This document shows, piece by piece, positions 38,705 through 59,400 of a stretch of 64,000 nucleotides of DNA (its first letter is position 1; every line of letters begins with the position of its first letter). The notes beneath the pieces were generated by a model, which worked only from the letters and a program-made list of their open reading frames with translations, did not search any database and was not told the DNA's origin. Location of the stretch: positions 248,001 to 312,000 of the forward strand of contig NZ_CP022121.1 of assembly GCF_002224645.1 (NCBI RefSeq), read 5' to 3'. Position numbers and translations under genes: made by a program. The DNA is from Dehalobacterium formicoaceticum. Lineage in GTDB: Bacteria > Bacillota > Dehalobacteriia > Dehalobacteriales > Dehalobacteriaceae.

Positions 38705-38817
38705 ATCCTTTTATTCCATGAAGCAAAGCCGGATAGTTGCAATCCAACTTTAAAAATGTTATTATAATTTTCAAACCGGGGATTAAAACTTGCCTGAAAT
38801 ACGCGTTTACTTTATTA

Positions 38818-38998
38818 TGTCCTACCTACATTGATGAATTGGGAATCTAATGTCATGCAGCTGTCGAACCGTCCTCGAACGGATGACAAAAACAGACTCA
38901 GGATACCCACCTGCGAGAGCGCAGGTAAGGACATATAAAGGACGGTATTTTGGGCAGTAATTTATTTGATAAATTTATCAATTACCTTTGTTACTGCC
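38818..38998. other. Gene-free structured element beyond the Wadjet operon
   Basis: No ORF is credible in 38705-38998. Inverted repeats are dense: ATGTCCTACCT (38818) against AGGTAAGGACAT (38926-38937), a 7-bp hairpin ACCTGCG-AGAG-CGCAGGT, ACCGTCC (near 38866) against GGACGGT (near 38939), the palindrome TTGATAAATTTATCAA (38966-38981), and outer arms GGCAGTAA/TTACTGCC (38953-38998). The last pair abuts the jetD stop and could end the transcript, although no T run follows. The upstream group fits no riboswitch I know. Confidence 0.45.
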
Positions 38999-40363
38999 TC
39001 ACTTTGAAAAGGACGGGCAGTTTTTTATATACTCCTTCATGTCCTCAACCAATATCGGGATCAACTCTTCCTGATACCCGGCTTTTCCTGCCCATAACAT
39101 CTTCTCCTTTACTGATTGCAATTCCTCTGTCATGACACTGTTTAATTTCTTTAACCGGGTTTCAGAGATCGAAACGGCAGACAAGGATGCTGCATAATCC
39201 TCCGCGCCAAAATGCCAAAGCCTTACCTTCCCGGGATAACGCCGCAGGAGTTGTTGAGCCATTTGCAAACCTTCCGGATCAAAATCTCCCGAGTAATAAA
39301 TAAGAATGTCACTTGCTGCAAGGCGATCCATCATTAACAGGGCGGCCAGCTTAAACTGGCCGTGGGTACAAATCATCGCCGGCCGGCTCCCGGCGCTAAA
39401 ATGATCTAACACAGCTGAAAATACACCTGAATTTTCCAGCACAAATACTCGATGGGGACACTCCTGGCCTTGATCAAATGACATGGGGACAAATCTATTG
39501 ACCTTTACAATTTCCCGAATAGGCACATTCAGTACGATCCCTTGCCGAGCAGCCCATTGCCATATGGGCATTATTTCATCCTGTTCATCAAAAGCCACGA
39601 TCCCCGTAGAGGTAACAAAGTTCAGGATATCATCCCTGAGCAATCCAAAATACTCCATAACTTCGTTCTTTTCTTCCGTTGATGGGGAAGAATTTATCGG
39701 ATAAGTATCATCTGCTTGATTTCTTAAAAATTGCAGAGCGGAGATAAAGAAACGTCCCTGCTCTGTTCCCAAATCAAACCCATGAGGATCCTGGCAGATG
39801 CTATTGGCAAAGATGGGAAGGCGCAAGAAACCATCTTGAGGCAGCCGGGACAAAGCACTCAAGATATTTTTCAATTGGTTTTTCAGGGTTGACGGACTTT
39901 TATCATAGGCTTGGTGTATTCCTCGTGTGCCGGCACCTTTTTCTTGAATATGAGCCAACCACCCCCGGCAATTCTGATGATCATATTTTTGCTCCAGGTC
40001 CTTAAAAAAATCTTCTTTTTGCTCCTGATACTGCTGATAAGCCTCTGCCTTGGTCAAAATATCCTCTTCAAAATAAGCATCTAATAAATCTTTCAGCTTA
40101 ATACCGGCGTATCTGGTTTTATTCAAGGACTGTTCAAAGGTCTCCAGGGAAATCTCAGCCGAAACCTGATGCTTATAATCCTTGGATAAGAGCATGGACA
40201 GAGCTTCCTTTTCTTCCTTGGTCAGGTTGGTGAGGCGTACACTGCCGCCAATCCTGCCCAAACCCCGATACTTTTCGGCAAACAATGGAAAAAGACGGCG
40301 GAATCCTTTTTCACCTTTAAAAAAAGCTGCCGCCTGGCAAGTTTTGGATGGAATTTCAGGCAC
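38999..40363 (-). CDS. jetD: Wadjet nuclease subunit JetD (DUF2399/TIGR02679 type)
   Basis: Topoisomerase VI/Spo11-like nuclease of the Wadjet anti-plasmid complex. About 454 residues: an N-terminal arm domain (to about 200) and a C-terminal Toprim domain with the acidic motif ILIYYSGDFDPEGLQMA (DxDxxG) preceded by FVLENSGVFSAVL with the conserved Glu. The frame is open from 40387, but GAGAGAGG before a GTG at 40363 gives the start VPEIPSKTCQ and an 8-nt overlap with jetC. Its place at the end of jetA-B-C-D is the canonical order. Confidence 0.9.
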   Translation of the reverse strand: MPEIPSKTCQAAAFFKGEKGFRRLFPLFAEKYRGLGRIGGSVRLTNLTKEEKEALSMLLSKDYKHQVSAEISLETFEQSLNKTRYAGIKLKDLLDAYFEEDILTKAEAYQQYQEQKEDFFKDLEQKYDHQNCRGWLAHIQEKGAGTRGIHQAYDKSPSTLKNQLKNILSALSRLPQDGFLRLPIFANSICQDPHGFDLGTEQGRFFISALQFLRNQADDTYPINSSPSTEEKNEVMEYFGLLRDDILNFVTSTGIVAFDEQDEIMPIWQWAARQGIVLNVPIREIVKVNRFVPMSFDQGQECPHRVFVLENSGVFSAVLDHFSAGSRPAMICTHGQFKLAALLMMDRLAASDILIYYSGDFDPEGLQMAQQLLRRYPGKVRLWHFGAEDYAASLSAVSISETRLKKLNSVMTEELQSVKEKMLWAGKAGYQEELIPILVEDMKEYIKNCPSFSK

Positions 40364-43300
40364 CAATAATCGCCTCTCTCTCCTCATTATCGTCCACCTG
40401 ACTAAAGTCCCCTTGGCTTAAAAGATAACGTTTCTGCCCATCCCAGCGGTAGCGCACCACCGTCACATAAGGGGCGTTTTTGGGGCGCACCAGTTCACAT
40501 ATTGATAAAGAGGATACGGTATCGTAGTCACCCCACAGATTTTGAGAATTCATAATAAAATTAAAGCCCAGTTTCTCTACCAAATCAAACATATCCCGAA
40601 TATTGTTTTCGTCCACACCGGCAAAAGCCTCATCTAAAGAGATAATAAAAGGGGCGTCTTCCCGAGCTTCCAGATAGCGGGAATAGGCCGCGGAGAATAA
40701 GGGAATATACATGGCCATGGCTTTTTCCCCTCCACTAAACTGGTAGAAAACATTGTTGGTTAACTCCTTTTTTTGCTCCCCTGCCCTTTGGTAGTAAAGG
40801 GTAAAAGAAAACCATTGCCGATAATCCAGCATTTCCTTGATTACTTGATGAAAGGTCTCCCCATATCCTTTATCCTCCAATACCTCTTTGGCCTGATCCA
40901 CCTTGGCACGAAAATGCTGGGTTACCCGTTCCAGATCCGCTTCTTTGAGCAGACGGGAATCAAGGCGCAGTAAATTTACCAAGTCTTTGGTATCCATTTC
41001 CGCTTCATGTTCAGCAGTTCTGGGTTTCCAGCGCAAAGAAAAAGTAAGCCCGCTAGAGGTATCTCGCTCTTCCATCAGTTCGGATATTTTTTTCACCCAG
41101 CGTTCGGCACGATTAATTTTGCCCCGGATAATCCGCCCCACACTGTTCATAATAATTTCTTCATACAACTCCCGATCTTTTTCATTGAGCAGCATTTGTT
41201 GCAGTTCAATATCCTTATTCATCTGCTCAAAAACGTAATAGGGGCTGACCCGTTTGCCCTGGTATTCCATTAACAGCTGTACCCGGCGTGATTTCTGTTT
41301 GAGCTCCTCCCTCCTAAAATACATCAGAGGATCATCTGCTCCAAGGGGAAGAGTATCCTTTTCCAAGACAGACTCTTGGGTCAAGCGATATTCCATCAAA
41401 ACGCCTTGTTCCTGATAGAAGGTTTGATTTAATCTTTGGGTGATCTTATCCCGATCAGTATTTTCCTTAAGAAGAAAGCCATATTCCTGTAAGATATCTT
41501 TGCCCCATTTCAATAATTGCTCTGCCTGCAAAGTTTCTTCCGGGACAACCTTGGGTACCAGACTAAGTTGCAGCTCTTCCCATAAAATTTCTTGCCATAA
41601 AGCATGAAATTGCTCACTGAGCTTCAGCCTCTTACCCAGTTCCTCCAGCTCTTTAATTCGATTGTCAATTTGATTTTCCATCGTACTCATATTTTTTTCC
41701 AGGGTCCGCAATTCCTTAGGAATCAATTCCAGACGCTCTACCAGATGGGCGATACGCGCTTGAATTTCTTCAGCCCCCATTTCCCGCAAGCGATCTTCTA
41801 CCTGCTGCAAGCGTAAGGCATCCATATCAAGCTCACTCTTCAGAACATTGATTTCCCCTTTTAGCTCATCCACATCTGCCCGTGTTTCTTCCAAGGTTGA
41901 TTGCAATTGCTGCAAAACCTTCTCTCCATTAATAAAATCCTTATGGGTCAGCTCTAGTTGCTGGAGATCATGTCCATAGGACTTGATCCTTTGAAGAACC
42001 AGCTCATAATCTTCCTGCCGGGGAGGAACCGATAGCTCCTCCGTCAAACTACGCAGTCGCTGACGAATATTTTGTAAATTTTCCAGCAGCCGGCGTACTT
42101 TTTCATTTTTCACATCCACTTCATGACTATGAATCTTTTCTTTTTCCTGCAGCCCCTCCAGGACGCGAAATGATTCCCCGGTATCATGATCTTGGGGAAA
42201 CCCTTCATATTCCTCCTGAAGCTTTTTCAACCGTGCCGTCAAGACCTCTTTTTCCTGCTCCAGGTTTTCCTTCTCTTTAATTAAGTCGGCCAATTCCTGA
42301 GCCAATTGCTCCATTACTCTGGCCCGGTAACTGCGTCGTGCTTCTCGGCCAATATAGATGGATCCCTCTGTTTTTGGCGCATGACCCTTGAGCAGATCAA
42401 TACGATAGGTGCCGTCTTCCCGGAGCATCGTGCTCTTGTCCCCTTGGTCATCAATCAAAACACTGCGCAGCACTTGATCAATGTCTGAGGCAGCAACCCC
42501 GCTCCCTTCAACCGGAGTAGGGTAGAGAAAGTCAGCCAGAGTATGGGCAAAAAGATGGGGTTGGGGTTGAATTACCCGATCGAATTGTCCGGTCAGATGA
42601 GCTTGTTTTCCCGAAACCACCAAGGCATCCAAAAGACCCATTTGGGTGATGGCCGCCTCAATGCGTTCCCGATGCTCCGGTGCAATATGATCCTGGAATT
42701 CTACGGAACTAAAAAAGGGTACAAAGGGAATCCCATTTTCTTTCAAAGCCCGGCGTTCCTTATCCGTATCAGAATGACGAGGGGGCTCCGGCTCTTTGAT
42801 CTTTTTCCACGCTTCCACTTCCTCTTGTTTATGAAGAATTGCCTCGTCCTTATCTTTAATTAGGGATTTTTGACCCATGATCTGATAATTTAACTGATTC
42901 TGATAGCGTACCTGGGCCTGGCGCAAAGGTACCAGGACTTCTTCAAAGCGATATTGCTGATAAATTTGCATGATGCGTTGAGATATCAGTTGGATTTCTT
43001 CCTGGGAAAGCCTTAATTCCTGGTTTTCCTTTAACCATTGATGAAAAAGATTAAGCAGCCGATCCTTTTCCTCTTCAAAAAGCTGAGCCCATTTTTTGAC
43101 CTCAAAACGAGTTTGGTCCAATTGCTTCCGGGCTTCACCTAACTCATGATCACCCTCCTGATATTTTTCCTTGGTGTTTATCTCTTCTTGAAAATTTATT
43201 AGGATTTGCTCAATCTTTTTCTGATATTCATTGACTTCTTCCTTCCATAGATAGAAGGAAAAATCCTCTCCGAATTTTCGCCGGAACTCACCAATGGCGA

Positions 43301-44549
43301 TTTCATGACCGGGAAAATAACTTTCCCCTCCCGCATCATCCAGCAAGTCAGCAAGATCCTGGATCTCTGCTTCATATTGAGCCACTTTGTCTCCCTCAAC
43401 CCGTAATTTTCCATCCAGCTCCCGTTCCTTGCTCTGCTTGGTATCCAAGATCCCCCGCTTCTTATTTTTTGTTTCCTCCGTATCCTTAATATGCCCCAGG
43501 ATCCGCTGCCGCTCTTCTTCTGCTTTAAAAACGCTATGCTCCCTTAAGCTCTTCTCTTCTTCCTTTTTGACAATTTGTTCTTCCTCCAGCTGCTTCATCT
43601 GTGCTGCCAAGGTGATCAGATTATCTTGATGCCCTTGCAACTTCTGTTCCAGCTCTTTTCCCTGGCGCACCAATTCTTCTTGTTCTTTATGAGCCGCAAG
43701 TAACCCCTCCGCCTTTTCGGCCAGGACAAATTGATTATAGCGATCATATTGCTGACAAAGTCTTTTCAATGATTGCTGATCCCGTAAAAGTAAATCTAAT
43801 TGTTGCTTGGTTTGATCCATGCTCTCAATGGTATCCGATAAAGGGCGTAATTCCTCGTCCGACAGGCCAGGCAGGGATTCATTTAAGATCTCGTAAATCA
43901 CCGTAGGCTTAAAGTCCTTGGATAATTTAGGGCTTCTCAGCTGGATTAATAATTTAATCAGTTCTTCATATGCCTCCAGTGACTCAAAGCCAAAGATATG
44001 CTTATTCACCAGCTCCATATACTCTTTTTGGCTGCGCACCACCTTGCCCCCCTCTTGCAAGGCGTTTTCCAATTGGATTCTGCTTAAAGGTATTTTTTCC
44101 TGTTGTCCTGTTTCCACATTGTATTCCGTATTATAGAGAAAATAATCCCGCCCGATGCGACGATTATCCAGGATGACGAATCCCCAAAAGTCCAAATTGC
44201 TCTGCCTTTTCGCCCGTAAACCTATACCGGTGGTTAGATACTGATCTGTATCCCGGCGCTTATATTCCAAATAAAGATAGCCGGTGCGCTCATCACGATC
44301 GACAATTTCTTTTTCACCCAACAGATAGTCTTCCATTTTGCGTGCTCTGGAACCGAAAGGATCCAAACGGTCCGGACTCTTTCGTCCATCCAGCAAAACC
44401 GGAATGAAGCTTTGCATGGTTACCGATTTCCCGGAACCGTTGCCACCCCGTAAAAGCAATTTCCCATCTGTTAAATCAAATTCTTCTTCATCGTAATACC
44501 AGAAATTTAATAATCCGGCCCGATGCAGCTGCCATTTATTTTTTGTCAT
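40356..44549 (-). CDS. jetC: Wadjet SMC-like ATPase JetC (TIGR02680 type)
   Basis: The SMC motor that extrudes DNA to sense closed circles. 1397 residues. N-terminal HRAGLLNFWYYDEEEF and Walker A GGNGSGKS (residues 35-42), then long coiled coils (about 250-620 and 790-1000) around a hinge-like middle (AITQMGLLDALVVSGKQAHL). The C-terminal head has the ABC signature QFSGGEKAMAMYIPL and Walker B FIISLDEAFAGVD. The frame extends to 44678, but the ATG at 44549 with GAGGATGAGG upstream and 16 nt after the jetB stop fits the family start. All ATPase motifs are intact. Confidence 0.95.
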   Translation of the reverse strand: MTKNKWQLHRAGLLNFWYYDEEEFDLTDGKLLLRGGNGSGKSVTMQSFIPVLLDGRKSPDRLDPFGSRARKMEDYLLGEKEIVDRDERTGYLYLEYKRRDTDQYLTTGIGLRAKRQSNLDFWGFVILDNRRIGRDYFLYNTEYNVETGQQEKIPLSRIQLENALQEGGKVVRSQKEYMELVNKHIFGFESLEAYEELIKLLIQLRSPKLSKDFKPTVIYEILNESLPGLSDEELRPLSDTIESMDQTKQQLDLLLRDQQSLKRLCQQYDRYNQFVLAEKAEGLLAAHKEQEELVRQGKELEQKLQGHQDNLITLAAQMKQLEEEQIVKKEEEKSLREHSVFKAEEERQRILGHIKDTEETKNKKRGILDTKQSKERELDGKLRVEGDKVAQYEAEIQDLADLLDDAGGESYFPGHEIAIGEFRRKFGEDFSFYLWKEEVNEYQKKIEQILINFQEEINTKEKYQEGDHELGEARKQLDQTRFEVKKWAQLFEEEKDRLLNLFHQWLKENQELRLSQEEIQLISQRIMQIYQQYRFEEVLVPLRQAQVRYQNQLNYQIMGQKSLIKDKDEAILHKQEEVEAWKKIKEPEPPRHSDTDKERRALKENGIPFVPFFSSVEFQDHIAPEHRERIEAAITQMGLLDALVVSGKQAHLTGQFDRVIQPQPHLFAHTLADFLYPTPVEGSGVAASDIDQVLRSVLIDDQGDKSTMLREDGTYRIDLLKGHAPKTEGSIYIGREARRSYRARVMEQLAQELADLIKEKENLEQEKEVLTARLKKLQEEYEGFPQDHDTGESFRVLEGLQEKEKIHSHEVDVKNEKVRRLLENLQNIRQRLRSLTEELSVPPRQEDYELVLQRIKSYGHDLQQLELTHKDFINGEKVLQQLQSTLEETRADVDELKGEINVLKSELDMDALRLQQVEDRLREMGAEEIQARIAHLVERLELIPKELRTLEKNMSTMENQIDNRIKELEELGKRLKLSEQFHALWQEILWEELQLSLVPKVVPEETLQAEQLLKWGKDILQEYGFLLKENTDRDKITQRLNQTFYQEQGVLMEYRLTQESVLEKDTLPLGADDPLMYFRREELKQKSRRVQLLMEYQGKRVSPYYVFEQMNKDIELQQMLLNEKDRELYEEIIMNSVGRIIRGKINRAERWVKKISELMEERDTSSGLTFSLRWKPRTAEHEAEMDTKDLVNLLRLDSRLLKEADLERVTQHFRAKVDQAKEVLEDKGYGETFHQVIKEMLDYRQWFSFTLYYQRAGEQKKELTNNVFYQFSGGEKAMAMYIPLFSAAYSRYLEAREDAPFIISLDEAFAGVDENNIRDMFDLVEKLGFNFIMNSQNLWGDYDTVSSLSICELVRPKNAPYVTVVRYRWDGQKRYLLSQGDFSQVDDNEEREAIIGA

Positions 44550-44565
44550 GACGACCTCATCCTCT

Positions 44566-45747
44566 CTACTCCCCGTCGGCGGCAAAATCTGCCGGATATT
44601 TGCCCACAGTACGCACCAATAATGGGAAAAGTATGATTGTTCCCGTATCCCCTGCTCTTGATGCCATCTGCCAATCAATTAAATGAGCTAATAAATCACG
44701 GGCTATCTGGGGGATGTCTCCTTCCCGATATTGTTTGCTCCACCCAGCACCAAAGCGTTCCTGACAGATTTGCACCCATTTGGTAAAATCAACCTGTGTC
44801 ACCTGAAGTGAACCGTCTGTCTGCCGGGGAAGCTCCATTGTCTGCTGCTGCTCCCGGACAATTTGAGCAAATTGCAGGGCAATGTCGGAGATCGCCTTAT
44901 TATCCGGAAAAAGAGTAAAACGAGCCCTACGTTCCGGCAAGGACAGGAGTGCGGCATTTTTATATAATTCAAATTGAAACCCACTATGGCTTTCAATATC
45001 TTCCCGAATTCGGTTACGGTAATTACGCAGGTAGAGAAAATCCGGATCATCAGAGCTTTTACTATACATCACCGGGGAAAGAAACAAGATGCGATAAACC
45101 CGATGGCGTCGATTGATCCCTACATCTTCCTCTTCCCCCTGCCATTCTGCTGCTAAAATTTCTTCTTTGGTCCTGAACTGAAATAAATCCTTGGGGTAAG
45201 AACGCATGAAATAGCGGGCTGCCAAAGGAACCTCATAAAGGACCTCCGATTCTTCCCGATAGCCAAAATCAGCGATATCTCCATCGACCACCTTGAGAAT
45301 TCCGATATCTACGGCTGTTTGCAGCACGCGCACCAGGGATTTTCGATGCTCATAATGGGTCCAATCCAGTCCATCCTCTCCGGGATAAAGGCTTAACAAG
45401 TCCTCACAAAGATGAGACAGCAAAAATTGTTCATCCACACTTTTGCCCTCCAAAAAGGCTAACAGGCAACAAAAGATCCCATAGTCCCGGGGATGGATAA
45501 AATCCTGGATACCCATCCAAGCCTCCGCTTTAACAGGGATTTTTTCCAGCTTGGCAAAGGAACGATGCACAATAAGACGAAAGCCCAGCTTGTCTAAAAA
45601 ATAGGTGCGGAGCACCTGCTCCCGTTCCCTGATCATCTGATATTTTTCCGGTTCTTTTTCCCGCAACACCCAAAATTGTTCTAAAAGATCTGCTGCCGCT
45701 TCTGCGGCGATCTCATCAAAATAATATTTTTTTGTCCCCGAATCCAT
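44566..45747 (-). CDS. jetB: Wadjet subunit JetB (DUF2398/TIGR02678 type)
   Basis: 393 residues, the KITE-like partner (MukE role) that bridges the kleisin and the SMC head. It matches the DUF2398 family in length and order of features: an N-terminal helical region with FWVLREKEPEKYQMIREREQVLRTYF, the middle LSHLCEDLLSLYP, winged-helix segments, and the C-terminal QICQERFGAGWSKQYREGD. It begins 8 nt after the jetA stop and ends 16 nt before jetC. By itself the sequence shows no enzymatic motif. Confidence 0.9.
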   Translation of the reverse strand: MDSGTKKYYFDEIAAEAAADLLEQFWVLREKEPEKYQMIREREQVLRTYFLDKLGFRLIVHRSFAKLEKIPVKAEAWMGIQDFIHPRDYGIFCCLLAFLEGKSVDEQFLLSHLCEDLLSLYPGEDGLDWTHYEHRKSLVRVLQTAVDIGILKVVDGDIADFGYREESEVLYEVPLAARYFMRSYPKDLFQFRTKEEILAAEWQGEEEDVGINRRHRVYRILFLSPVMYSKSSDDPDFLYLRNYRNRIREDIESHSGFQFELYKNAALLSLPERRARFTLFPDNKAISDIALQFAQIVREQQQTMELPRQTDGSLQVTQVDFTKWVQICQERFGAGWSKQYREGDIPQIARDLLAHLIDWQMASRAGDTGTIILFPLLVRTVGKYPADFAADGE

Positions 45748-45755
45748 TTCATCAC

Positions 45756-47267
45756 CTATTCTAAAAATTGAATCACAAAGTTTGGCATCACCAGATTGCC
45801 GTCCTCTGCCCGCAGGGTAATTTCCTGATCATCAACTGTGATCAGACGAAACTTGCGCCCTGTCTCTGTTTTTGCCATGCGCTCCTGATGGGTCATGGAT
45901 TTTCCGATCCAGCGCAGGAGCGTTTTACGAATATAAGGATCGACCAGGGGCAAATCAGCCAGCACAATTTGATTTTGCTGCACGATTTCTGCCACCAGCT
46001 TTTGTTCTGCTTCCCGCTCTTTTAAATATGCGGTCAGGGTTTGCTGTTTTTCCTGCTGCAGGCTTTTGATAGCACCCGGTTTTGTTTTTTCTCGGTACCT
46101 TCGCACCCGTGGCTTGATCGTCACTTCCGTGGGTTCTTCATCCCAGATCTCGGCATAAATATCTTCTGTGGCCTTCCCGCCGGAAAATAAGTGCCGGGTA
46201 TGAAAAACACCGAAAACAGAAGCTGAAATTTCATGAGCCTCTTCCAAAGTGTCACAACGGGCAAACCAATCAGCCAGAAAAAGATAATCCTGACGCCGGC
46301 TTTTTAAAATATGATGCCGTTCACCGATGCGTTGCGCAAAACGGGTGATGCGGCGTATCGTTTCATTAGTCACGTTTTGGAGATAGATCAGATCACTCTC
46401 CCCACTCTCATCACCTAAAAACCAGGTGGTCAGATCCTGCCACTGACCGAAAAATCTTTCAATTAAACTCTCTTTTGGGGGACGTTCATCCAAGCGCGGG
46501 ATTTTTAGTTCATAATCAGCCAAACGAGTTGTAATCAATTGGATGAGCTGATCCGGAGCATCTGCCAGCAGGTTTTCGATACGAAAAGAGGTATGCTGTA
46601 AAGCGGTCATAAAATTACGCAGATAATCGGTAACAGCATCCTTGTAGGATAAAAAAGCTTCGGTCATCATCATTTCTTCTACTTTTTCGCTTTGTAAATG
46701 AGCCAAATAATCTGTGGCTCCTTCTGTTAACTTGCGAAAATTATCATACAATTCCTGCCAGAGGGCATAAAGCTCTTCATCAGACATGTCCTCTACCCCA
46801 TAGATTTTACGGTGCTGATGGGAAGAGTCTGACCGGTATGCCAGCAGCTTTATCAGTGAATTTAAGAGCCGGTCAAATAAAGTTCTTTCCAGGGAACCGC
46901 CAAAGGAATCCCCCATTTCCTCCAATCCCTGAACCATACGTTCTATTTCCACCGTATAAGGCGTACATTGATAGCGAAACTTTTTCTTTTTAAATTCCTC
47001 CACAGAGGTAACCCGGGTCGTATCCTGCCGGGGAATCAGATTTTTCCACTCCACCAGCTGGTTCAAATCCTGCTGCAGCTGTTCTTCCGTATAATCCTGA
47101 AAAAACATGCTTTGCCGAAGATAGGATAAAACCTCTTCGGGGAAGAGATAGTGATGCAGCCGTTCATATTGGGTATAAAAATAGCGCAAAATCCCTCGAT
47201 AACGCCCTACATTGGCTGCCGTTAAATAAGAAACCTCGGTAATGGGTTTTAATACTTTTTCATCCAT
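45756..47267 (-). CDS. jetA: Wadjet kleisin subunit JetA (DUF2397/TIGR02677 type)
   Basis: 503 residues, the kleisin (MukF role) that closes the SMC ring. N-terminal AANVGRYRGILRYFYTQYER and EEVLSYLRQ winged-helix features, a long helical middle, and the C-terminal segment LRWIGKSMTHQERMAKTETG are typical of DUF2397. The ATG at 47267 is preceded by GGTGAGAGGG, which is the last of five 10-bp repeats. A start 12 nt upstream is also open. It lies 39 nt after recD2 on the same strand. Confidence 0.92.
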   Translation of the reverse strand: MDEKVLKPITEVSYLTAANVGRYRGILRYFYTQYERLHHYLFPEEVLSYLRQSMFFQDYTEEQLQQDLNQLVEWKNLIPRQDTTRVTSVEEFKKKKFRYQCTPYTVEIERMVQGLEEMGDSFGGSLERTLFDRLLNSLIKLLAYRSDSSHQHRKIYGVEDMSDEELYALWQELYDNFRKLTEGATDYLAHLQSEKVEEMMMTEAFLSYKDAVTDYLRNFMTALQHTSFRIENLLADAPDQLIQLITTRLADYELKIPRLDERPPKESLIERFFGQWQDLTTWFLGDESGESDLIYLQNVTNETIRRITRFAQRIGERHHILKSRRQDYLFLADWFARCDTLEEAHEISASVFGVFHTRHLFSGGKATEDIYAEIWDEEPTEVTIKPRVRRYREKTKPGAIKSLQQEKQQTLTAYLKEREAEQKLVAEIVQQNQIVLADLPLVDPYIRKTLLRWIGKSMTHQERMAKTETGRKFRLITVDDQEITLRAEDGNLVMPNFVIQFLE

Positions 47268-47270
47268 GAT

Positions 47271-47320
47271 CCCTCTCACCCTTTCTCACCTTCTCTCACC
47301 CTATCTCACCCTATCTCACC
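47271..47320 (-). repeat. Five 10-bp tandem repeats across the recD2 stop and the jetA ribosome site
   Basis: On the minus strand GGTGAGA recurs at an exact 10-bp period five times, ending 4 nt before the jetA ATG. The first copy encodes the last RecD2 codons and its TGA stop; the last supplies the jetA ribosome site. A gain or loss of one copy would shift the RecD2 C-terminus and the leader length. Confidence 0.9.
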
Positions 47321-49471
47321 CTCCCAGCTTACCTCTGGGTTTAATCGTTGGGCCAGCATGGTATTCCTTTTGGTCGTCCTATTGTTTTTCACTGCCATAG
47401 CCACGGCTTTTTTGCTTCCCACCAGGACAAATACCTTTTTTGCCCGGGTAACGCAGGTATAAAGCAGGTTCCTTTGCAGCATCATATAATGCTGAGTCGT
47501 AAAAGGGGCGACCACAATTTTATACTCACTGCCCTGACTTTTGTGAATAGAGGTGGCATAAGCCAAAACCACTTCATCCAGCTCCGTAGCCTCATAAGGA
47601 ACATCATTGCCATCAAAATTTAGGATTAAAGTACGTTCTTCCGGATCCAATTGGGTGATACTGCCAATGTCTCCATTGAAAACGTTTTTATCATAATTGT
47701 TTTTGATCTGCATCACCTTGTCCCCCAGACGATAAACGTAGGCTCCATATTTCAAAGAAATTCCTGAAGGGTTCAGGGCTTCCTGTAAAACCATATTCAG
47801 GTTTGCCGCTCCCGTCTCCCCCCGGTGCATGGGACAGAGTACCTGGATATCCTGCAAAGGATCCACCCTATAATATTTGGGAAGCCTCTTCACACATAAA
47901 TCCTGAATCACTTGAACTACTTGTGTCGGCTCCTCCTCGTCAATAAAGAAAAAGTCGCTATCCTTACCCCCTTTTAATTCAGGGAACTTTCCTTGATTGA
48001 TTTTATGAGCATTGGTGATGATGGCACTCCCCTGAGCCTGGCGAAAAATTTTCGTGAGTTTAATCACATCCACCATGCCGGAATCAATAATATCCTTTAA
48101 TACATTGCCCGCCCCTACCGAGGGTAATTGATCCACATCTCCCACCAGAATTACCACCGTCTCATCAGCTACCCCTCGCAGCAGGTTATACATCAGAATA
48201 ATATCCACCATGGAGGTCTCGTCAATGATCAACACGTCACAGGCTAAAGGATTGTCCCGGTTTCTTTTGTACCCCTCGGGAGGTTTATATTCCAACAAGC
48301 GGTGAATGGTTTTAGCCTCCATGCCCGTTGCTTCCGCCATTCTTTTGGCAGCTCTGCCAGTGGGAGCCGCCAGGAGCACCTGTGCTCCCAATTGTTGAAA
48401 AATCTGAATCATCCCCAAGGTGGTCGTGGTTTTTCCTGTGCCGGGGCCTCCCGTTAAAACCATAAATTTGGAGGTGGCGGCTGTTTGAATCGCATTTTTT
48501 TGTACCTGATCATAAGTGATCTTTTGCTGATCCTGAATATCAACGATAATTTTCTCCGCATCATTGGCCTGGAATGGGCTGGGCTGGGCAGTAATCTCAC
48601 GAATTCGTTTTGCCGCTCCCAACTCACTATGATAAAAAGGGGGCAAAAAAATGGCATCCTCCCCATCTAAAATCACCGTCTGATCCTTAATAATTCGATC
48701 CAGGGTATCATTAAGCAGGGATTGATCAACTTCCAGGATTTTTTCCGCCTCAAGTAATAATTGTTCCCGAAAGGCAAAGCAATGGCCTTCGTTGGACAAT
48801 TGGTTCAGTACATAGACCAGACCGGAGCGGCAGCGGGGGAAGGAATTTTTATCAAAGCCCATTTGCCGGGCAATTTTATCTGCCGTTTTAAATCCAATCC
48901 CCCAGATATCATCCGCCAGGCGGTAAGGATTTTCTTTTACGATTTCGACGCTTTCGTTGCCATAGGTTTTGAATATTTTTACCGCATAGGCCGTGGACAC
49001 TCCATTACTCTGTAAAAAAATCATGACATTTTTGATTTCTTTCTGCTCCTGCCAGGCCTTTTTAATCATTACCAGGCGTTTTTCTCCGATCCCTTCCACC
49101 TGAGTAAGAGCATCCTGCTCCTCTTCCAGAACCCGCAAGGTATCCTCTTTAAAGTGACGGACGATCTTTTTCGCATACACCGGCCCGATCCCTTTAATCA
49201 AACCGCTGCCTAGATATTTTTCAATCCCTGCCACCGTGGCCGGCATGGTTTCCCGGTAATCCTGAACAGCAAACTGTCTCCCGTATTTACTATCCATCTT
49301 CCAATCACCCTTTAGGCGGATAATGGCGCCCACATTCACGGCAGCCAGACTGCCCACAACAGTAATTAAGTCGGTAAAACCCTTCGCCTTAATTTTGATC
49401 ACGGAAAAACCGTTTTCTTCATTTTGAAATGTAATCCTTTCCACTACGCCACTAATGTATTCCATGCCCAT
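47306..49471 (-). CDS. recD2: ATP-dependent RecD-like DNA helicase RecD2
   Basis: 5'-3' SF1B helicase. 721 residues with an N-terminal OB-like and helix-hairpin-helix part (IEKYLGSGLIKGIGPVYAKKI, VEGIGEKRLVMI, GIGFKTADKIARQMG), Walker A LTGGPGTGKTTTTLG, motif II VLIIDETSMVD, DVDQLPSVGAG, and the late YATSIHKSQGSEYK. The longer N-terminal extension without RecBC association marks it as RecD2. A TGGTATGAT extended -10 lies about 60 nt upstream. It is co-directional with jetABCD and may share the transcript. Confidence 0.95.
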   Translation of the reverse strand: MGMEYISGVVERITFQNEENGFSVIKIKAKGFTDLITVVGSLAAVNVGAIIRLKGDWKMDSKYGRQFAVQDYRETMPATVAGIEKYLGSGLIKGIGPVYAKKIVRHFKEDTLRVLEEEQDALTQVEGIGEKRLVMIKKAWQEQKEIKNVMIFLQSNGVSTAYAVKIFKTYGNESVEIVKENPYRLADDIWGIGFKTADKIARQMGFDKNSFPRCRSGLVYVLNQLSNEGHCFAFREQLLLEAEKILEVDQSLLNDTLDRIIKDQTVILDGEDAIFLPPFYHSELGAAKRIREITAQPSPFQANDAEKIIVDIQDQQKITYDQVQKNAIQTAATSKFMVLTGGPGTGKTTTTLGMIQIFQQLGAQVLLAAPTGRAAKRMAEATGMEAKTIHRLLEYKPPEGYKRNRDNPLACDVLIIDETSMVDIILMYNLLRGVADETVVILVGDVDQLPSVGAGNVLKDIIDSGMVDVIKLTKIFRQAQGSAIITNAHKINQGKFPELKGGKDSDFFFIDEEEPTQVVQVIQDLCVKRLPKYYRVDPLQDIQVLCPMHRGETGAANLNMVLQEALNPSGISLKYGAYVYRLGDKVMQIKNNYDKNVFNGDIGSITQLDPEERTLILNFDGNDVPYEATELDEVVLAYATSIHKSQGSEYKIVVAPFTTQHYMMLQRNLLYTCVTRAKKVFVLVGSKKAVAMAVKNNRTTKRNTMLAQRLNPEVSWEGEIG

Positions 49472-50777: not shown

Positions 50778-52055
50778 TTAAACATTAGAAGAAATTTCAA
50801 CTTCAATTCCCCTTTTGGAAAGGAATTGAAAAAAAGTCTTTTGGATCTCTGTTTCCTTAAACGGTGAGGTAAAACTTATTACGAGCCTGTCTCCATAGGA
50901 GCACATGGTAATCTGAGGCCTCCTGGCGCTGGTACAAAAGCTAAACTGCTTGATATAATGATCAAATTCCAATGGCATCGTTATTCTGCCGATATTTGAA
51001 ATGGCACCGGTTATTTCCCTATCAATTACCTTATCAGCAATGCGCAGGGCATAATCCTTTAAGGGTAAGGGGATTACTTTTGCCACCAGGTTCTTTTCCA
51101 GGGCAATATATTGATTTAACTGCTTAGCCAATTGCTCTTTTTTCATGCCCTCTTTAAAGCCTTCTTTTACAGCGGCGATAATTTCTTCGATTTCAACATT
51201 CTCCTTTGTAAAGATGCTGCCTACATTTATTGTGGTGAAGAAATTTCTGGCCGTCTCAGACTCAAAAAATTGACGCAAATTGACAGGAACTGTTAATGTA
51301 ACAGGATATTTTTTACCCCGTGCCGTCATACCTTTATAGATAGCATATATGAATACTGATGCTATGAAGATGGTCAGGGTAGATTTGTATTTATGAGCTT
51401 CTTCTAAAACAGCCTTGACAGACATACTGCCTTCTATTAATAGGGTCCTGTTTTCTTCTAATCTGGTGCCGCGAATTTGATAGGCCTTGATGCTTTTTAT
51501 TTTTTTAATGTTTTTCAGATTATCTTGAAAAACATGATCTCCTGTAAAATGTCTTTTAAAACTATCGTTCATTTTTTCGCTTAATGAGACATTATTTTGC
51601 AATTCCGGTATTTTGCAGGCAAAAGCTTTCTTATGTTTCATCATCAGATAATGATGTACCATGTTCTGCATAAACCAAAGTGCGCCGGTTCCGTCAGAAA
51701 GGGCATGAAATATCTCCATGTTTATCCTGTTATGATAGTAAAATACCCGAAATAATAGATCCTTTCTATCCTTAAAATAAATTGGTGCGCAAACAGGCTT
51801 TGATTCCATTTCAACAATCGGGCGAATATCACTGGATTCAAGATAGTACCAGAATACTCCCCGCCTTAAGACTGCTTTATATAAGGTGAAGCTCTCCATC
51901 GTAATATCCAGTGCCCGCTGCAGAACTTTCGGATGCACATCTTCTGTGAGCTCACAGGTAACCCGGAAAACTTTTGGATCTTTATCATCATAGGTTGCCG
52001 GAAAAATCTTGGAAGCATTATCCAGCCTTGTCCATTCTACTTTTCTAGATTTCAT
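50778..52055 (-). CDS. Condensation-type acyltransferase (alcohol acetyltransferase-like)
   Basis: 425 residues with the chloramphenicol acetyltransferase/condensation fold. The HxxxDG active-site motif is seen as FHALSDGTGALWF near residue 140, and a later ITMCSYGDRLVISFTSPF resembles the DFGWG-like structural segment. Acyl donor and acceptor are unknown. It overlaps the esterase gene by 11 nt and ends 18 nt before the DUF6320 gene, so the three form an operon. The start at 52055 fits GGGTGTCGAG; a 6-codon-longer reading is open. Confidence 0.8.
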   Translation of the reverse strand: MKSRKVEWTRLDNASKIFPATYDDKDPKVFRVTCELTEDVHPKVLQRALDITMESFTLYKAVLRRGVFWYYLESSDIRPIVEMESKPVCAPIYFKDRKDLLFRVFYYHNRINMEIFHALSDGTGALWFMQNMVHHYLMMKHKKAFACKIPELQNNVSLSEKMNDSFKRHFTGDHVFQDNLKNIKKIKSIKAYQIRGTRLEENRTLLIEGSMSVKAVLEEAHKYKSTLTIFIASVFIYAIYKGMTARGKKYPVTLTVPVNLRQFFESETARNFFTTINVGSIFTKENVEIEEIIAAVKEGFKEGMKKEQLAKQLNQYIALEKNLVAKVIPLPLKDYALRIADKVIDREITGAISNIGRITMPLEFDHYIKQFSFCTSARRPQITMCSYGDRLVISFTSPFKETEIQKTFFQFLSKRGIEVEISSNV

Positions 52056-52989
52056 CTCGACACCCTGATTCAATGATCTCTTCGTTTAAGAATTGATTGA
52101 TGATATTATAGCATTTAATGACATGCTCTGAGTCCCAGGGCAAGGATATAAAACCATGAAGGGCATCTTCCATACGATATATTTTAACCTCATTATGATA
52201 TTCCCTTAACCGCATCCCATACGCCTCCCCTTCATCTCTAAGCGGGTCATACTCTGCTGTAATAATAAGTGTTTTTGGTTGATTAAATAGGTTCTCGGCA
52301 AGTAACGGAGCGGCATAGGGACTGAATCTGTCCTCATCATTGGAAATATACAAATCCCAGTAGTCTTGAATGCGTTTTGACGTAAGCAGATAATCGGTGC
52401 CATTATCCCTGATGGAGTTAAAGGGAGAAGTATCGCTATGATCATAATAAGTTGACGGATAGAGTAATATCTGCTTCGTTGGCAAAAATTCTCCCCGATC
52501 TCGTGCCATCAAGGATACCGCCGCCGCCAGATTCCCTCCTGCACTGTCACCGATCAAGGTGATGTCAGTTTGTTTACACTTTAGTATATCCAGGTTGAGA
52601 AAGATATCCCTTGTAACGTGATAGCAATCCTCTACACCGGCTGGAAAGGGGTGCTCCGGAGCCAATCGATAATTCACAGAAATAACCTTGTGTCCGGTTT
52701 GGTTGGCCATATTTGAACATACGTTGGTATAGGAGTCGATGTTGCCTGTTACCCATCCGCCGCCATGAAAAAAAATCAACACATTATTAGATTTTTGCTT
52801 TTTAGGTTGAAATAATCTCACCTGTATTTCCCGGTCGCCTACCATAACCTTATGATCCATCAAATTGTATAATGGTTTAAAAGATGGATTTATCGCATTG
52901 AGTAACTTACGATATATTTTATAATATTTCTTTAAATTAAGATAAGGATAGGAAAGAGCTTTTAAGATTGTTTTCTTAATTGGATGCAT
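52045..52989 (-). CDS. Alpha/beta hydrolase of the hormone-sensitive-lipase family
   Basis: 314 residues with the oxyanion motif FFHGGGWVTG (about residue 75), the nucleophile in LIGDSAGGNLAAA, and Asp and His in AEYDPLRDE and ALHGF, giving a complete catalytic triad. It likely hydrolyses short or medium acyl esters. The N-terminal 40 residues are basic (KKTILKALSYPYLNLKKYYK). It is the first gene of the esterase-acyltransferase-DUF6320 operon; the pair suggests acyl-group turnover on an envelope lipid or secondary metabolite, which is inference. Confidence 0.88.
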   Translation of the reverse strand: MHPIKKTILKALSYPYLNLKKYYKIYRKLLNAINPSFKPLYNLMDHKVMVGDREIQVRLFQPKKQKSNNVLIFFHGGGWVTGNIDSYTNVCSNMANQTGHKVISVNYRLAPEHPFPAGVEDCYHVTRDIFLNLDILKCKQTDITLIGDSAGGNLAAAVSLMARDRGEFLPTKQILLYPSTYYDHSDTSPFNSIRDNGTDYLLTSKRIQDYWDLYISNDEDRFSPYAAPLLAENLFNQPKTLIITAEYDPLRDEGEAYGMRLREYHNEVKIYRMEDALHGFISLPWDSEHVIKCYNIINQFLNEEIIESGCRDEI

Positions 52990-53179
52990 GGCATCAATCT
53001 CTCTTTCTTTTTATCTATTTTCCAAAATTTCTTTCTCTTCTTCTTTTTCTTTTCTGTCAATCAGAAGCTTTACCCATGCTTTATTTTCAACTTATTATAT
53101 CAAAATATGTATACGTTTTACAGGATAAACAGAGTTCTTGGCACCAAATGGAATTTTTGCTCCAACTGACAACAGCAAA

Positions 53180-53206
53180 GGCAGACAGCTTCATCTGCTG
53201 TCTGCC
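53180..53206 (-). terminator. Hairpin after the DUF2680 gene
   Basis: A perfect 10-bp stem (GGCAGACAGC/GCTGTCTGCC) with a 7-nt loop lies about 50 nt past the DUF2680 stop. The T run on the minus strand is poor (CTTTGCTGTTG), so termination is only likely. Confidence 0.6.
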
Positions 53207-53254
53207 CGGCATTAGCTTTTCTCTTCATTAAACAATTAATTCTCTTTAATTATT

Positions 53255-53749
53255 TTACTTTCCATTAGAGGCACCATTGCCCCAGCCTGCTCCCATACCT
53301 TGACCCATGCCTCTGCCCATTCCTTGTCTCATCATCCCTTGACCCATGCCATTTCCTTTACCATTACAATTACCGATTCCAGCTCCGCATGCACCGTCTT
53401 TTCTGCCAATTCCGGTACCATCGCAAAGAGCTTGACGTTCCTCCATGTTTTGATAGATTTCATCTGCTTGTTCCTGGGTCAGTCTGCCTTCTGCCACTCT
53501 TTGATCAAGAAGGGCCTTTTTTTGCTCCAGCATATCGGCTTTAAATTGATCCAATTGACCGGCATCCTGGGCAATCTGACCATAGGTCTTACCGGCCGCT
53601 CTCTCCTCGTTTACCTGGGCAAGGGTCATGCCCGTAACATCTGATGCGATCTCCGCCGGTGAGCGCAATTCAGCAGCAAGAGCTACACCTGCTGTAGCTA
53701 AAACGCCCACTATCGCAACCGTGGCCACCAATTTTTTTAAATTTTTCAT
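53255..53749 (-). CDS. Secreted DUF2680 protein with a Met/Gly-rich tail
   Basis: 164 residues: a signal peptide (NLKKLVATVAIVGVLATAGVALA, cleavage after AxA near residue 26), a helical DUF2680 core (about 30-110), and a tail with two Cys (NCNGKGNGMGQGM and earlier GACGAGI) and repeats of GMGQGM/QGMGRGM. Met-rich repeats are common in Cu(I) or Ag(I) binding proteins. It is transcribed divergently from a two-component system whose sensor carries the same MGQGM motif. The binding role is inference. Confidence 0.85.
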   Translation of the reverse strand: MKNLKKLVATVAIVGVLATAGVALAAELRSPAEIASDVTGMTLAQVNEERAAGKTYGQIAQDAGQLDQFKADMLEQKKALLDQRVAEGRLTQEQADEIYQNMEERQALCDGTGIGRKDGACGAGIGNCNGKGNGMGQGMMRQGMGRGMGQGMGAGWGNGASNGK

Positions 53750-53824
53750 ACAATTACCACTCCTTATATTTTTATTTGATCTTTAAGCTGACCGACTTTC
53801 TTTAATCCTATTATGCCCTATACT

Positions 53825-53868
53825 TGTGACAAAAGTTTGACAAAACTTTGAAAAAAATTTGATAAAAA
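53825..53868. promoter_or_regulatory. Four 11-bp direct repeats (OmpR/PhoP-type response-regulator site)
   Basis: Four consecutive 11-bp units start at 53825, 53836, 53847 and 53858, each with the core TTTGAnAAAAn (TGTGACAAAAG, TTTGACAAAAC, TTTGAAAAAAA, TTTGATAAAAA). An 11-bp period is what tandem OmpR-family dimers use, as in PhoP boxes. It lies between the divergent DUF2680 and response-regulator genes and overlaps the probable DUF2680 promoter. Confidence 0.65.
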
Positions 53869-53907
53869 AGCATGCCATATCTTTGACACAAATATTTTAG
53901 CCTTTAA

Positions 53908-53916
53908 TGGTATAAT
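53908..53916 (+). promoter_or_regulatory. Extended -10 promoter of the two-component operon
   Basis: TGGTATAAT (TGnTATAAT) lies 28 nt before the CTG start of the response regulator. A TTGACA is present but 22 bp away, so the -35 contact is poor. This fits a promoter helped by the regulator bound at 53825-53868. Confidence 0.6.
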
Positions 53917-53943
53917 AAGATCATCGGAAAGGAGAGGATTCCC

Positions 53944-54636
53944 CTGAGTAAATACATCTTAATTGCTGATGATCATGAAGGTATTCTGGATATATTAAAA
54001 ACCTATGTACAGAAAGAAGGATTTACACCCATTCTGGCTCGTGACGGGGAAGAGGCGTTGGCTTTATTTGCCCAGTATCATCCGATTTTAATCCTGCTGG
54101 ATGTGATGATGCCCAAAAAGGATGGTTTTGAAGTCTGCCGGGAGATCCGAAAAATTTCTAATGTGCCGATCATTATGGTCACAGCTAAAGGCGAAGACGG
54201 GGATCGCATCATGGGTTTGGACATTGGGGCTGACGACTATATTGTCAAGCCCTTCAGTCCTGAGGAAGTGATGGCGCGCATCCGAGCGATTTTAAGACGT
54301 ATGGATCTGTCCGATGATCAGGAAAAAGAACTTCTCACCTTCCCCGGACTGGAAATCAATCTCTCCGACTACGCGGTGAAAATCTCCGGTCAACCGGTAA
54401 GCCTGACAAAAAAGGAAATAGAAATCCTTTGGCTCATGGCTTCTCATCCGGGCAAGGTTTTTTCCCGGGACAATTTGTTAAATCAGGTGTGGGGCTACGA
54501 TTATTATGGAGATGCCCGCACCGTGGATACTCATATTAAGAGACTGCGCTCAAAAATCAGCACCTCCGAAGCCCTGGTTTGGGAGATTAAAACCATTTGG
54601 GGTGTAGGTTATAAATTTGAGGTACAGGATGTTTAA
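53944..54636 (+). CDS. OmpR/PhoB-family response regulator
   Basis: About 230 residues: receiver domain (1-115) with the acidic pair ILIADDHEGI, the phospho-acceptor Asp in LLDVMMPKKDG and the Lys in VKPFSPEE, then the winged-helix DNA-binding domain (130-228) with VWGYDYYGDARTVDTHIKRL. No ATG or GTG fits the start of the receiver. GGAGAGG lies 6 nt before an in-frame CTG at 53944, which gives the full domain (SKYILIADDHEGI), so a CTG start is proposed. A frame start at 54058 would lack the first 38 residues, including the acid pair. Confidence 0.85.
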   Translation: MSKYILIADDHEGILDILKTYVQKEGFTPILARDGEEALALFAQYHPILILLDVMMPKKDGFEVCREIRKISNVPIIMVTAKGEDGDRIMGLDIGADDYIVKPFSPEEVMARIRAILRRMDLSDDQEKELLTFPGLEINLSDYAVKISGQPVSLTKKEIEILWLMASHPGKVFSRDNLLNQVWGYDYYGDARTVDTHIKRLRSKISTSEALVWEIKTIWGVGYKFEVQDV

Positions 54637-56485
54637 AAGAAGTATTACCCTCCAATTAACCGGCGGCGTGGTCATTATTGTCCTGGTTTCCATGCTGGCC
54701 ATTGGCCTCATCTTTATCCAAATGTTTAAGCAATATACCTTCGAAAGCCGTGAGGAAACTATGCTGACCCGGGGCCGAAGCATTGCAGAATTGGTTAATA
54801 TCAATGCAACCGGCGGCCATATGCAGGGTATGGGTGGAATGATGCATAATCTGGATATCCTGGCGGAAGCCAAGATATGGATTATCGATCAGACCGGCAA
54901 TCCTGCTGCCATGTCGGGGATGGGTCAAGGAATGGGCAAGGGGCGCGGGCACATGAATAATTTGAATAACATGAACAATTCCGAACCGCTGCCCCAAGAG
55001 GCGGAAAAGGTCATTGTGGATGTGCTGTCCGGCGGGGAATCGGTGAGTGAAAGTTTCAGCAGCGTTTATCAGGAAGCTACCCTCACTGTCGGAGTGCCTG
55101 TACAAGATTCGTCAGGTCAGATTACCGGGGCCGTACTCCTCCACGCCCCGGTGGCGGGGGTGACTCCATTATTAAATCAAGCCAACCGTATTTTGGTCCT
55201 TAGTTTGCTGGGCGCTCTGCTATTAGCCATCGCTTTGGGTCTGGCCTTTTCCCGCTATTTTGCCCGTCCCTTAAAGACCATGAACCGCACCGCACTGGCT
55301 ATGGCCGGGGGAAATTATGCTGTGCAGACAGGGATTGAACGGGAGGACGAAATTGGTCAATTGGGGCAATCCCTGGATCTTCTGGCACACCGCTTAGGTA
55401 ATACCATCGATCTGCTTTTTCAAGAGAAGAGCAAGTTAAATGATATTATTGCCAGTATGGCGGAAGGTCTGGTCGCCTTTGATCGCGAGTTAAAACCCCA
55501 GAGCATGAACTTTGCCTTGTCTCAGATTATGTATAATGGCTTGCCCTACCCGGATGAAATCCTGGCCAATCATTTTCGGGAACTGAGCCTGGAGGCTGAT
55601 TTAAAAGAAATTATGGAGCAAAAAAAATCCTCCATCATTATGAAGGATTGGAAGGGGAAAAAACTTAAATTTATCCTTTCCCCCATCAGCAACAATCTCG
55701 GAATGGTGACAGGTTGTGTGGCACTGGTGCAAGATGTCAGCGAAAGTGAGCGTCTCGAACAATTGCGCCGTGATTTTGTCGCCAATGTCTCCCATGAATT
55801 TCGCACACCCCTTACCGTCATCCGAGGTTCCCTGGAAGCATTGGTAGACGGTACCATAATTGAAGATCAGGAAAAGAAGCGCTATCTTTCAAGAATGCTT
55901 GCCGAAACCCGTGGCTTAGAACGCTTGGTAGGAGATCTTTTGGATCTGTCCCGCCTCCAATCGGGTAAGATTACCATGAATATAGAAGAAATTCATCTGC
56001 CCACCCTGCTTTCTGATGTGCTGAAAAGTCTCCAAACCTTGGCCGATAAAAAGGAGATTCAAATGCGCTATGATGGGGAAAAAAATTTACCCACGATTCC
56101 GGGAGATTATGACCGCTTGCGCCAAATGCTGGTCATCTTTCTGGATAATGCTATCAAATATTCTCCTCCCCATACTTTAGTCTCTGTCGAAACTAAGGAT
56201 CTGCAGGATCAGACCCTCACCATTAACATCCACGACCAAGGTCCGGGCATTGCGCCGGAACAGCTTCCCCATATTTGGGATCGATTCTATAAAGGAGAAA
56301 AATCTCGCCAGGGCGGCGGGACTGGGCTGGGTCTGGCTATTGCCAAGCATCTGATTGATCTCCATCATGGCAGCGTTACTGTAGCAAGCGTCTTGGATCA
56401 AGGCACCATGATCGAAATCAAGCTGCCCCTGTCCTTTAAGACGCTTAATACGCCAGTGTTTCTCCCGTCTCAAAAAGATAAATAA
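54629..56485 (+). CDS. Sensor histidine kinase with Met-rich extracytoplasmic domain
   Basis: 618 residues: membrane helix 1 (about 9-31), an extracytoplasmic domain of about 150 residues with Met/His-rich stretches (GGHMQGMGGMMHN and AAMSGMGQGMGKGRGHMNN), membrane helix 2 (ILVLSLLGALLLAIALG), HAMP, a PAS-like region (about 275-370), HisKA with the phospho-His in NVSHEFRTPLTVIRG, and HATPase (DNAIKYSP, DQGPGIAPEQ, GGGTGLGLAI). GAGG precedes the ATG at 54629, which overlaps the regulator gene by 8 nt. The last 41 nt overlap the end of addA on the other strand. Confidence 0.92.
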   Translation: MFKRSITLQLTGGVVIIVLVSMLAIGLIFIQMFKQYTFESREETMLTRGRSIAELVNINATGGHMQGMGGMMHNLDILAEAKIWIIDQTGNPAAMSGMGQGMGKGRGHMNNLNNMNNSEPLPQEAEKVIVDVLSGGESVSESFSSVYQEATLTVGVPVQDSSGQITGAVLLHAPVAGVTPLLNQANRILVLSLLGALLLAIALGLAFSRYFARPLKTMNRTALAMAGGNYAVQTGIEREDEIGQLGQSLDLLAHRLGNTIDLLFQEKSKLNDIIASMAEGLVAFDRELKPQSMNFALSQIMYNGLPYPDEILANHFRELSLEADLKEIMEQKKSSIIMKDWKGKKLKFILSPISNNLGMVTGCVALVQDVSESERLEQLRRDFVANVSHEFRTPLTVIRGSLEALVDGTIIEDQEKKRYLSRMLAETRGLERLVGDLLDLSRLQSGKITMNIEEIHLPTLLSDVLKSLQTLADKKEIQMRYDGEKNLPTIPGDYDRLRQMLVIFLDNAIKYSPPHTLVSVETKDLQDQTLTINIHDQGPGIAPEQLPHIWDRFYKGEKSRQGGGTGLGLAIAKHLIDLHHGSVTVASVLDQGTMIEIKLPLSFKTLNTPVFLPSQKDK

Positions 56486-59400
56486 CCTTGTCCTTTACCT
56501 TCTTGCCGGTGAGCATCTCCAGAGCACGGGTATAATAAGAAATTTGCAGACGGTAACGTTCCCGGAGTCCTTCTGACTTTCCGACAGTGACGAAATCAGT
56601 CTTATAGTCCAGAAGGACAAGGCCGTCCTGCTCCTCAAAGTAGCAATCGATCACCCCTTGTAAAAGAATCTTCTCCTTCCGGCAAGCTTCCTCCTCCATG
56701 TTAGGATATAATTCATGACAAGGTATTTCCATAAAAAAGGGTACCTCCCGATAAACCGCCCTTGCTAAAAGAAGTCTTTGGCCCCAGGGAGATGCCAGAA
56801 AAGCACGGATCCTGGCGGGATTAATGCTCGCTGCCTGCTCTGGGGTCAGCAGGTCTTTTGCCTGCATCTCCGCCAGCTGGCCCTCGATATCTTCTCGTTG
56901 ATAATCCAAATGCTGCATGACAAAGTGCATAATAGTACCCTTTTCCGCCCCGCTTAAACCCTTTTTCTGCTGGAGGAAGAGGGGCTTTTGCACCAATGTC
57001 ACCGGATATTCCGGGTAGGGCGTGGTGTCTTCTGTACTCTCCACCTGAAACCATCTTTTCAATTCTGTGACAGTTACCTTGGCCGGTATTCGGGAAACCT
57101 GTTGATAGGGGTAAGCCCAGCTCAATCTATCCTCCAGTTCTTGGGGCAGGGGGCTATCTTCCAGCGAAGGCAGCCCATCCAGCCACCGGATAAACTGGTT
57201 TTCTCCCAGTTCCCGCTCCTCTTTTACGGCAAGAAGATCACCCTTCTTCCATACCCGGATCTGCCACGATGAATCATCCGTGAGTAAGCTGCCGTTTAAC
57301 TCCCCTTCCAGGCCGCCCAGCTCTCTTAAAATTCCGGCATCAGGATGCCTAAGCATTGCTGGACCAAGCCAATCCAGGTAACGATTCCCTTTCAACATTT
57401 CATAAGGAGGCAGCTTATCTCCTGCTGACTGGGCGGCGCTGCCCCACTTGGCCAAGGCTCTTTCCAGATTGGGTACTACTCCGGTGATGATCAGTTTTTC
57501 TTTGGCCCTGGTCATGGCCACATAGAGGATGCGCATTTCCTCCGATAATGTCTCCCTCCTTATTTTCTCCCGAATCGCCAGTTTGGGAGCTGAAGGGTAG
57601 GATAACCTTAGTTCCGGATCTACCACCTCCGGCCCAAAACCCAGATCCTGATGGAGGAGTATTTTCCCATTTAAATCCTGAAGATTGAATTGCTTGCCGC
57701 AGCCGGAGAGAAACACCACGGGAAATTCCAAACCCTTGCTCTTGTGAATGCTCATAATGCGCACCACATTATTATTTTCCCCGAGAATTTTTGCCGCTCC
57801 CATATCACCCTGGCTGGTTTTTAATTTATCCACAAAATTAATAAAATTAAAAAGACCTTTATAACTGGTCGCCTCAAATTGACGCGCTCGTTCAAATAAA
57901 ATGCGCAGATTGGCCTGCCTTTGTTCTCCTGTCGGCATCGCCCCTACCAGGCTATAATAACCAGTCTCTTGATAAAGCTGCCAGATTAAGCGGTCGGTAG
58001 AAAGAACCCGTGATCCTTCCTGAAACCTGGCTAATTGCTCCAAAAATGATGTCGCTTTCGCCGCACCCGGTCCTTGGTTATTGAGACTTAAAGCCTGAAG
58101 AGCATGATAAAGGCTGCCTTTTCGATCCGACAAACGAAGTTCCGCCAGTTCATCCGTGGTCATGGCTACGATAGGCGAGCGCAGCACCCCCAGGAGAGGT
58201 ATATCCTGTAAGGGATTGTCAATAATTTGCAGATAGGACAAAACCACCTGGATTTCCGGTGATTTAAAAAAGCCGGTTCCGGTATCGGCAAAAGCCGGGA
58301 TCCCAAGGTTAGACAACTCCTCCATAAAAACATCCGACCATTTTTTGGTCGTACGCAAAAGAATGACCATATCCTTGTATTCCGGTTTCCGATATTGATT
58401 TTCTTTCTGATCCCAAACCCCAAGGGTCTGTCCCTGCTCATCCGGCCGCAGCAAATCCTGAATTCGGGTCGCCACCAGACGGGCTTCCCACTGAATCTTA
58501 TCCAGTATTTCATCCTCTTCCTCCGGGGATACCTTCTCGGCCTCACCTCGTTCCTGATCCCGTTCATCATCCCCCGGCTCCTCTTTATGATCATGATCAT
58601 CCTCGGTGGTCATCAGGTGGAATTCCATTTTTCCTCCGGCCAAGAGAACCGTGTCCTCCTCACAAGGGGCAAAGACGGCTCCCGGATTCAAAGCTTCTTC
58701 ATCGGTATAATCCAATTCCCCCACCCGCTGGGACATGATCTGCTTAAAAATAAAATTAACTCCATGCACCACTTCCCACCGACTGCGGAAATTTTTATAT
58801 AGCTGGATGCAGCGATAAGGATCGCCTTCTTTTGGAGAATAATGATGATATTTCTCCAAAAATAACTCCGGCTTGGCCTGTCGAAAGCGATAGATGCTTT
58901 GTTTCACATCTCCTACCATAAAGACGTTGGGCTCGCCCAAATCGCCCCGGGAAATCATGCCAATAATCGCTTCCTGAACCAAATTGCTGTCCTGATATTC
59001 ATCCACCAAAATCTCGGCAAAACGCTCCCGATACCCATGTGCCGCAAGGGAAGGCACCGGTATGCCATTTTCATCTTCCTTGGTTAGAATCTCCAGACAA
59101 AAATGCTCCAAGTCGTTAAAATCCACTACTCCTTTGCGGTTTTTCTTAATGGCATATCTGGTACCAAATTCCATCACCAGTTGCGTCAAGGATTTCAGCA
59201 AAGGGTAAATGCCTTCGATCTCCTGATAAATTTCCTGGGAAGGCGCCGTACAGATCTCGGTGCTGATTTTTTTCATGCGCTCCTTCACTTTATCCCGAAG
59301 CGTCTTGGCTCTTTCATGAAGCTCTTTATCCCCATTTTTACCCGCTGAAGACAATCGGGCATATTTCTGATCCTGTACTTCTCGATAAAGGGCATCCCAT

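Follow-up and report, generated by a model that had tools for sequence, protein, structure and literature searches.

A complete and apparently functional Wadjet type II operon predicted between recD2 and the 6S RNA gene of Dehalobacterium formicoaceticum

The jet operon of D. formicoaceticum was analysed within the window, the whole stretch of 64,000 nucleotides under study, and its sequence marks it almost certainly as a Wadjet type II system that is complete and apparently functional. The genes jetA, jetB, jetC and jetD are all full-length and uninterrupted and follow one another on one strand as A-B-C-D. The jetA gene (45756..47267, minus strand) encodes a kleisin-like subunit of 503 aa (DUF2397 / TIGR02677) from an ATG start, and an alternative GTG start at 47279 is also possible. 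It is followed by jetB (44566..45747, minus strand), which encodes a KITE-like subunit of 393 aa (DUF2398 / TIGR02678), by jetC (40356..44549, minus strand), which encodes an SMC-like ATPase of 1397 aa (TIGR02680), and by jetD (38999..40387, minus strand), which encodes a CAP-Toprim nuclease subunit of 462 aa (DUF3323 + DUF2399 / TIGR02679). The mechanical open reading frame of jetC begins with a TTG at 44678; homology to the solved JetC could be observed only from the ATG at 44549 (MTKNKWQ). The spacing is tight, with 38 nt from recD2 to jetA, 8 nt from jetA to jetB and 16 nt from jetB to jetC, and the reading frames of jetC and jetD overlap by 32 nt. Tandem Repeats Finder revealed a 10-bp tandem repeat at 47274..47322 (minus-strand unit GTGAGATAGG-like, 4.9 copies, score 77, 89% matches), which reaches from the last recD2 codons to the jetA start. 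On the coding strand the repeat is rich in purines, and it carries repeated Shine-Dalgarno-like GAGAGG/GAAAGG; its copy number might vary, thereby tuning jetA translation.

The PADLOC search revealed the type 2 model as the top match for each of the four proteins, with E-values of 1.1e-191 for JetA2, 6.9e-156 for JetB2, 0 for JetC2 (1680 bits) and 5e-150 for JetD2, a range of 5e-150 to 0 that is far outside chance. The best scores on type 1 models were 5e-20 (JetC1) and 6e-6 (JetD1); the type 2 models outscored them by hundreds of bits, and the proteins did not fall within type I. Pfam analysis assigned JetA to PF09660 (DUF2397; 1.2e-146), JetB to PF09661 (DUF2398; 1e-113), JetC to SbcC_Walker_B and JetD to PF11796 + PF09664 (DUF3323+DUF2399). 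All of the NCBIfam families scored above their curated cut-offs, namely TIGR02677 for JetA (420.8 bits against 165.85), TIGR02678 for JetB (298.9 against 124.65), TIGR02680 for JetC (972.7 against 462.85) and TIGR02679 for JetD (234.2 against 196). The PADLOC best matches and these NCBIfam scores together identify the system as Wadjet type II. The original prediction had described a complete four-gene JetABCD Wadjet of these families on one strand, which PADLOC, Pfam and NCBIfam all bear out; its coordinates (38999-47267) proved correct, and the subtype number that it had left to a search with PADLOC or DefenseFinder models is thereby supplied. Related loci were gathered from a collection with one genome per species, and 80 were kept. 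Of these 80 loci, 78 have all four genes on a single strand with the order A-B-C-D; the remaining two have contigs of insufficient length to reveal all four. A second Wadjet in the genome was considered and rejected on the basis of a genome search that returned only one DUF2399 match. Apart from JetC, an SbcC-type Walker B matched only in a 1072-aa frame elsewhere in the genome, which is probably SbcC.

JetA, JetB and JetC matched PDB 9qe0/9qe1 over their full length, and the chains there are likewise named JetA, JetB and JetC. Against 9qe0, E-values of 1.1e-133 for JetA (chain E), 1.1e-111 for JetB (chain D) and 0 for JetC (chain A) were obtained. We regard these entries as the Neobacillus vireti type II complex (nvJET). 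The window JetC aligns with nvJET JetC through the hinge region, and a channel-less hinge as in nvJET would be expected from this alignment. The nvJET complex cuts naked circular DNA, is without a central hinge channel and is unable to bypass DNA-tethered obstacles (PMC12647877). The motifs of the window JetC comprise a Walker A (GGNGSGKS), a signature (FSGGE) and a Walker B (IISLDEAFAG), and these patterns recur in almost every member of a set of 76 related JetC proteins.

The JetD sequence was aligned with 40 others from related loci, giving 41 sequences, and another set consisted of 77 sequences. Among the residues invariant in the 41 sequences were E318, N319, G343, Y365, G367, D368, D370 and G373, together with others, and D368/D370 sit in the motif GDFDPEG. 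Intact ATPase and Toprim motifs had been predicted, and the Walker A, signature and Walker B motifs as well as the JetD acids could all be found; a loss of the Toprim acids, which would have spoken against the prediction, was contradicted by the retention of E318, D368 and D370. The sequence search of the PDB with JetD gave no relative, the only match being a chance one (E=0.16). Because no type II JetD was found by this search, the fold was compared by means of a model. The AlphaFold model built on the 41-sequence alignment had a mean pLDDT of 94.2 and a pTM of 0.85. Its best Foldseek matches were the topoisomerase VI A subunit, 8b7f (the C. glutamicum Wadjet nuclease), Spo11 and 7til (P. aeruginosa JetD), all with E < 0.001. 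Comparison using VIA-align gave the highest Z score against topoisomerase VI-A 1d3y_A (Z 15.7, rmsd 4.1, 251 aligned), followed by the C. glutamicum JetD-type nuclease 8b7f_A (Z 14.6, rmsd 7.3, 264 aligned) and P. aeruginosa JetD 7til_B (Z 12.6, rmsd 14.4, 279 aligned). According to the model, the predicted fold of JetD is CAP + Toprim, of the topoisomerase VI-A/JetD kind. The CAP and Toprim domains may be arranged differently in the two type I JetD chains, which would explain their large rmsd.

The operon is flanked upstream by the recD2 helicase gene (47306..49471, minus strand; TIGR01448 E=8e-280), and a 6S (SsrS) RNA gene on the plus strand (38788..38960; Rfam RF00013, 63.2 bits against a gathering score of 46.4) converges on jetD. 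The 6S RNA gene is located between jetD and an MFS transporter gene. In a relative of the same family without jet genes (G001), 6S comes immediately after addB-addA-recD2 and has the same relative orientation as here (L089), whereas in the window the jet operon occupies the interval between recD2 and 6S. The operon is therefore a discrete module that was gained or lost. The 16-nt string ATATAAAAAACTGCCC is shared, in one reading frame, by the end of recD2 in G001 (...GNIKNCP*) and the end of jetD in the window (...EYIKNCPSFSK*). The junction with the shared string lies at 38999-39050 in the window and at L089:13150-13245, and gives a precise boundary between the occupied and the empty site. 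Two histories would produce this junction: insertion of the module into the last recD2 codons of the window, or a deletion in G001 that joined recD2 to the jetD tail. The recD2 tail of another relative, G003 (EQKSPAWD), showed no clear likeness to the window or to G001. A class-wide search for RecD2 revealed a strong full-length match in only 3 of 43 genomes, all belonging to the window's own family.

Since recD2 and jetA share a strand and are 38 nt apart, with recD2 upstream, co-transcription is likely, and the jet operon is probably transcribed together with and downstream of recD2. This arrangement, along with the position of addA and addB (56445-63469) about 7 kb further upstream of recD2, would suit a working unit of recD2-jetABCD, in which a co-transcribed RecD2 helps to process or degrade plasmids cut by Wadjet. 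Such a unit is very unlikely, however: no RecD2 match was found beside jet at any of the 80 related loci, both G001 and G003 possess recD2 without jet, the recD2 of G001 adjoins addAB and 6S, and the adjacency resembles an insertion site. RecD2 as a general Wadjet partner was ruled out on the same 80 loci. Given the lack of RecD2 matches there, the recD2 neighbour is regarded as the site and not as a part of the system, and recD2 was judged to be a housekeeping gene outside it. In the region 50778-63469 of the window, addAB is set apart from recD2 by genes for a response regulator, for a sensor kinase and for an esterase, and by a further gene for a 431-aa protein (50778-52073) that had no Pfam or NCBIfam match; in G001, addB-addA-recD2 are contiguous.

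For the phylum survey, TIGR02680 matches above the cut-off were counted in 299 sampled genomes, and 43 of these carried one. The set is thus common, and the earlier suggestion of a rarer subtype does not hold. Within the window's class, the system was present in this genome only (1 of 43), a JetA search of the class being in agreement; the class survey of 43 genomes also gave a marginal Toprim-only match in a second genome. This sporadic presence, together with a close relative without jet, could point to a decayed Wadjet remnant that is no longer active. That reading is even more improbable than a recD2 unit, as the four frames are full-length, each checked ATPase and Toprim motif is present, and the tight spacing and gene overlap are retained. 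The least probable explanation is a MukBEF/MksBEF-type chromosome-organising condensin without a nuclease, which had been named beforehand as the finding that would overturn the prediction: JetC is distantly SMC/MukB-like as an ATPase, and a common ancestry links the Wadjet and Mks complexes (PMC10586767), but in its simple form this reading is overturned by an intact JetD, and the scores of all four proteins on the type II Wadjet models range from about 1e-150 to 0. The type II Wadjet assignment is accordingly kept, and the locus is a well-preserved type II member in a lineage otherwise without jet genes. It belongs to a well-described kind, and it contributes to Wadjet biology a further type II member together with a mapped position, between recD2 and 6S.

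The type II operon would be expected to act as follows. JetC, the SMC ATPase, would form an ATP-driven DNA loop-extruding motor with the kleisin-like JetA and the KITE-like JetB. On a small closed circle, this motor would run out of DNA, upon which JetD would be released, and the CAP-Toprim nuclease would then cut the circle in a sequence-independent manner. In types I and II, JetABC extrudes DNA loops with ATP, and completed extrusion on a small circle triggers JetD (PMC10586767, PMC12647877). By analogy with the N. vireti and type I systems, we infer that the present complex assembles, extrudes loops, cleaves circular DNA and excludes plasmids; judged from these characterised relatives, the host would resist small plasmids. 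A native effect of jetABCD deletion has been documented for another Bacillota Wadjet. The genome of D. formicoaceticum DMC (CP022121) consists of a single circular chromosome of 3,766,545 bases (PMC5597755), and no plasmid has been reported for this strain. A single plasmid-free chromosome agrees weakly with plasmid exclusion and, as one genome, is no proof of it. The words Wadjet, plasmid, CRISPR and restriction do not occur in a published genome comparison of the class (PMC10327494). The analysis settles the subtype of the system, and the operon would account beforehand for a practical obstacle in D. formicoaceticum.

The JetD model shares the CAP-like + Toprim fold of the topoisomerase VI A subunit and Spo11 (Z up to 15.7), and type I JetD is reported to be without the catalytic tyrosine, unlike topoisomerase VI A / Spo11 (PMC10586767). 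The Wadjet type I systems (E. coli GF4-3, P. aeruginosa PA14 and C. glutamicum MksBEFG) have the same layout of SMC, kleisin, KITE and CAP-Toprim nuclease, and the fold of the JetD model matches 8b7f and 7til; however, the protein families differ, and only the weak JetC1 and JetD1 scores given above link the sequences. The closest loci could be found in Desulforamulus putei, Tepidibacillus decaturensis and Clostridium thermobutyricum (L006-L008), with identities of 55-59% for JetC, 57-63% for JetA, 63-66% for JetB and 46-51% for JetD. The gene order and the single strand are alike in these loci, whereas the flanks differ and recD2 does not adjoin theirs. The Wadjet II of N. vireti (nvJET) consists of the same families, and its JetA, JetB and JetC are homologous to those of the window over their whole length, in a host of a different class.
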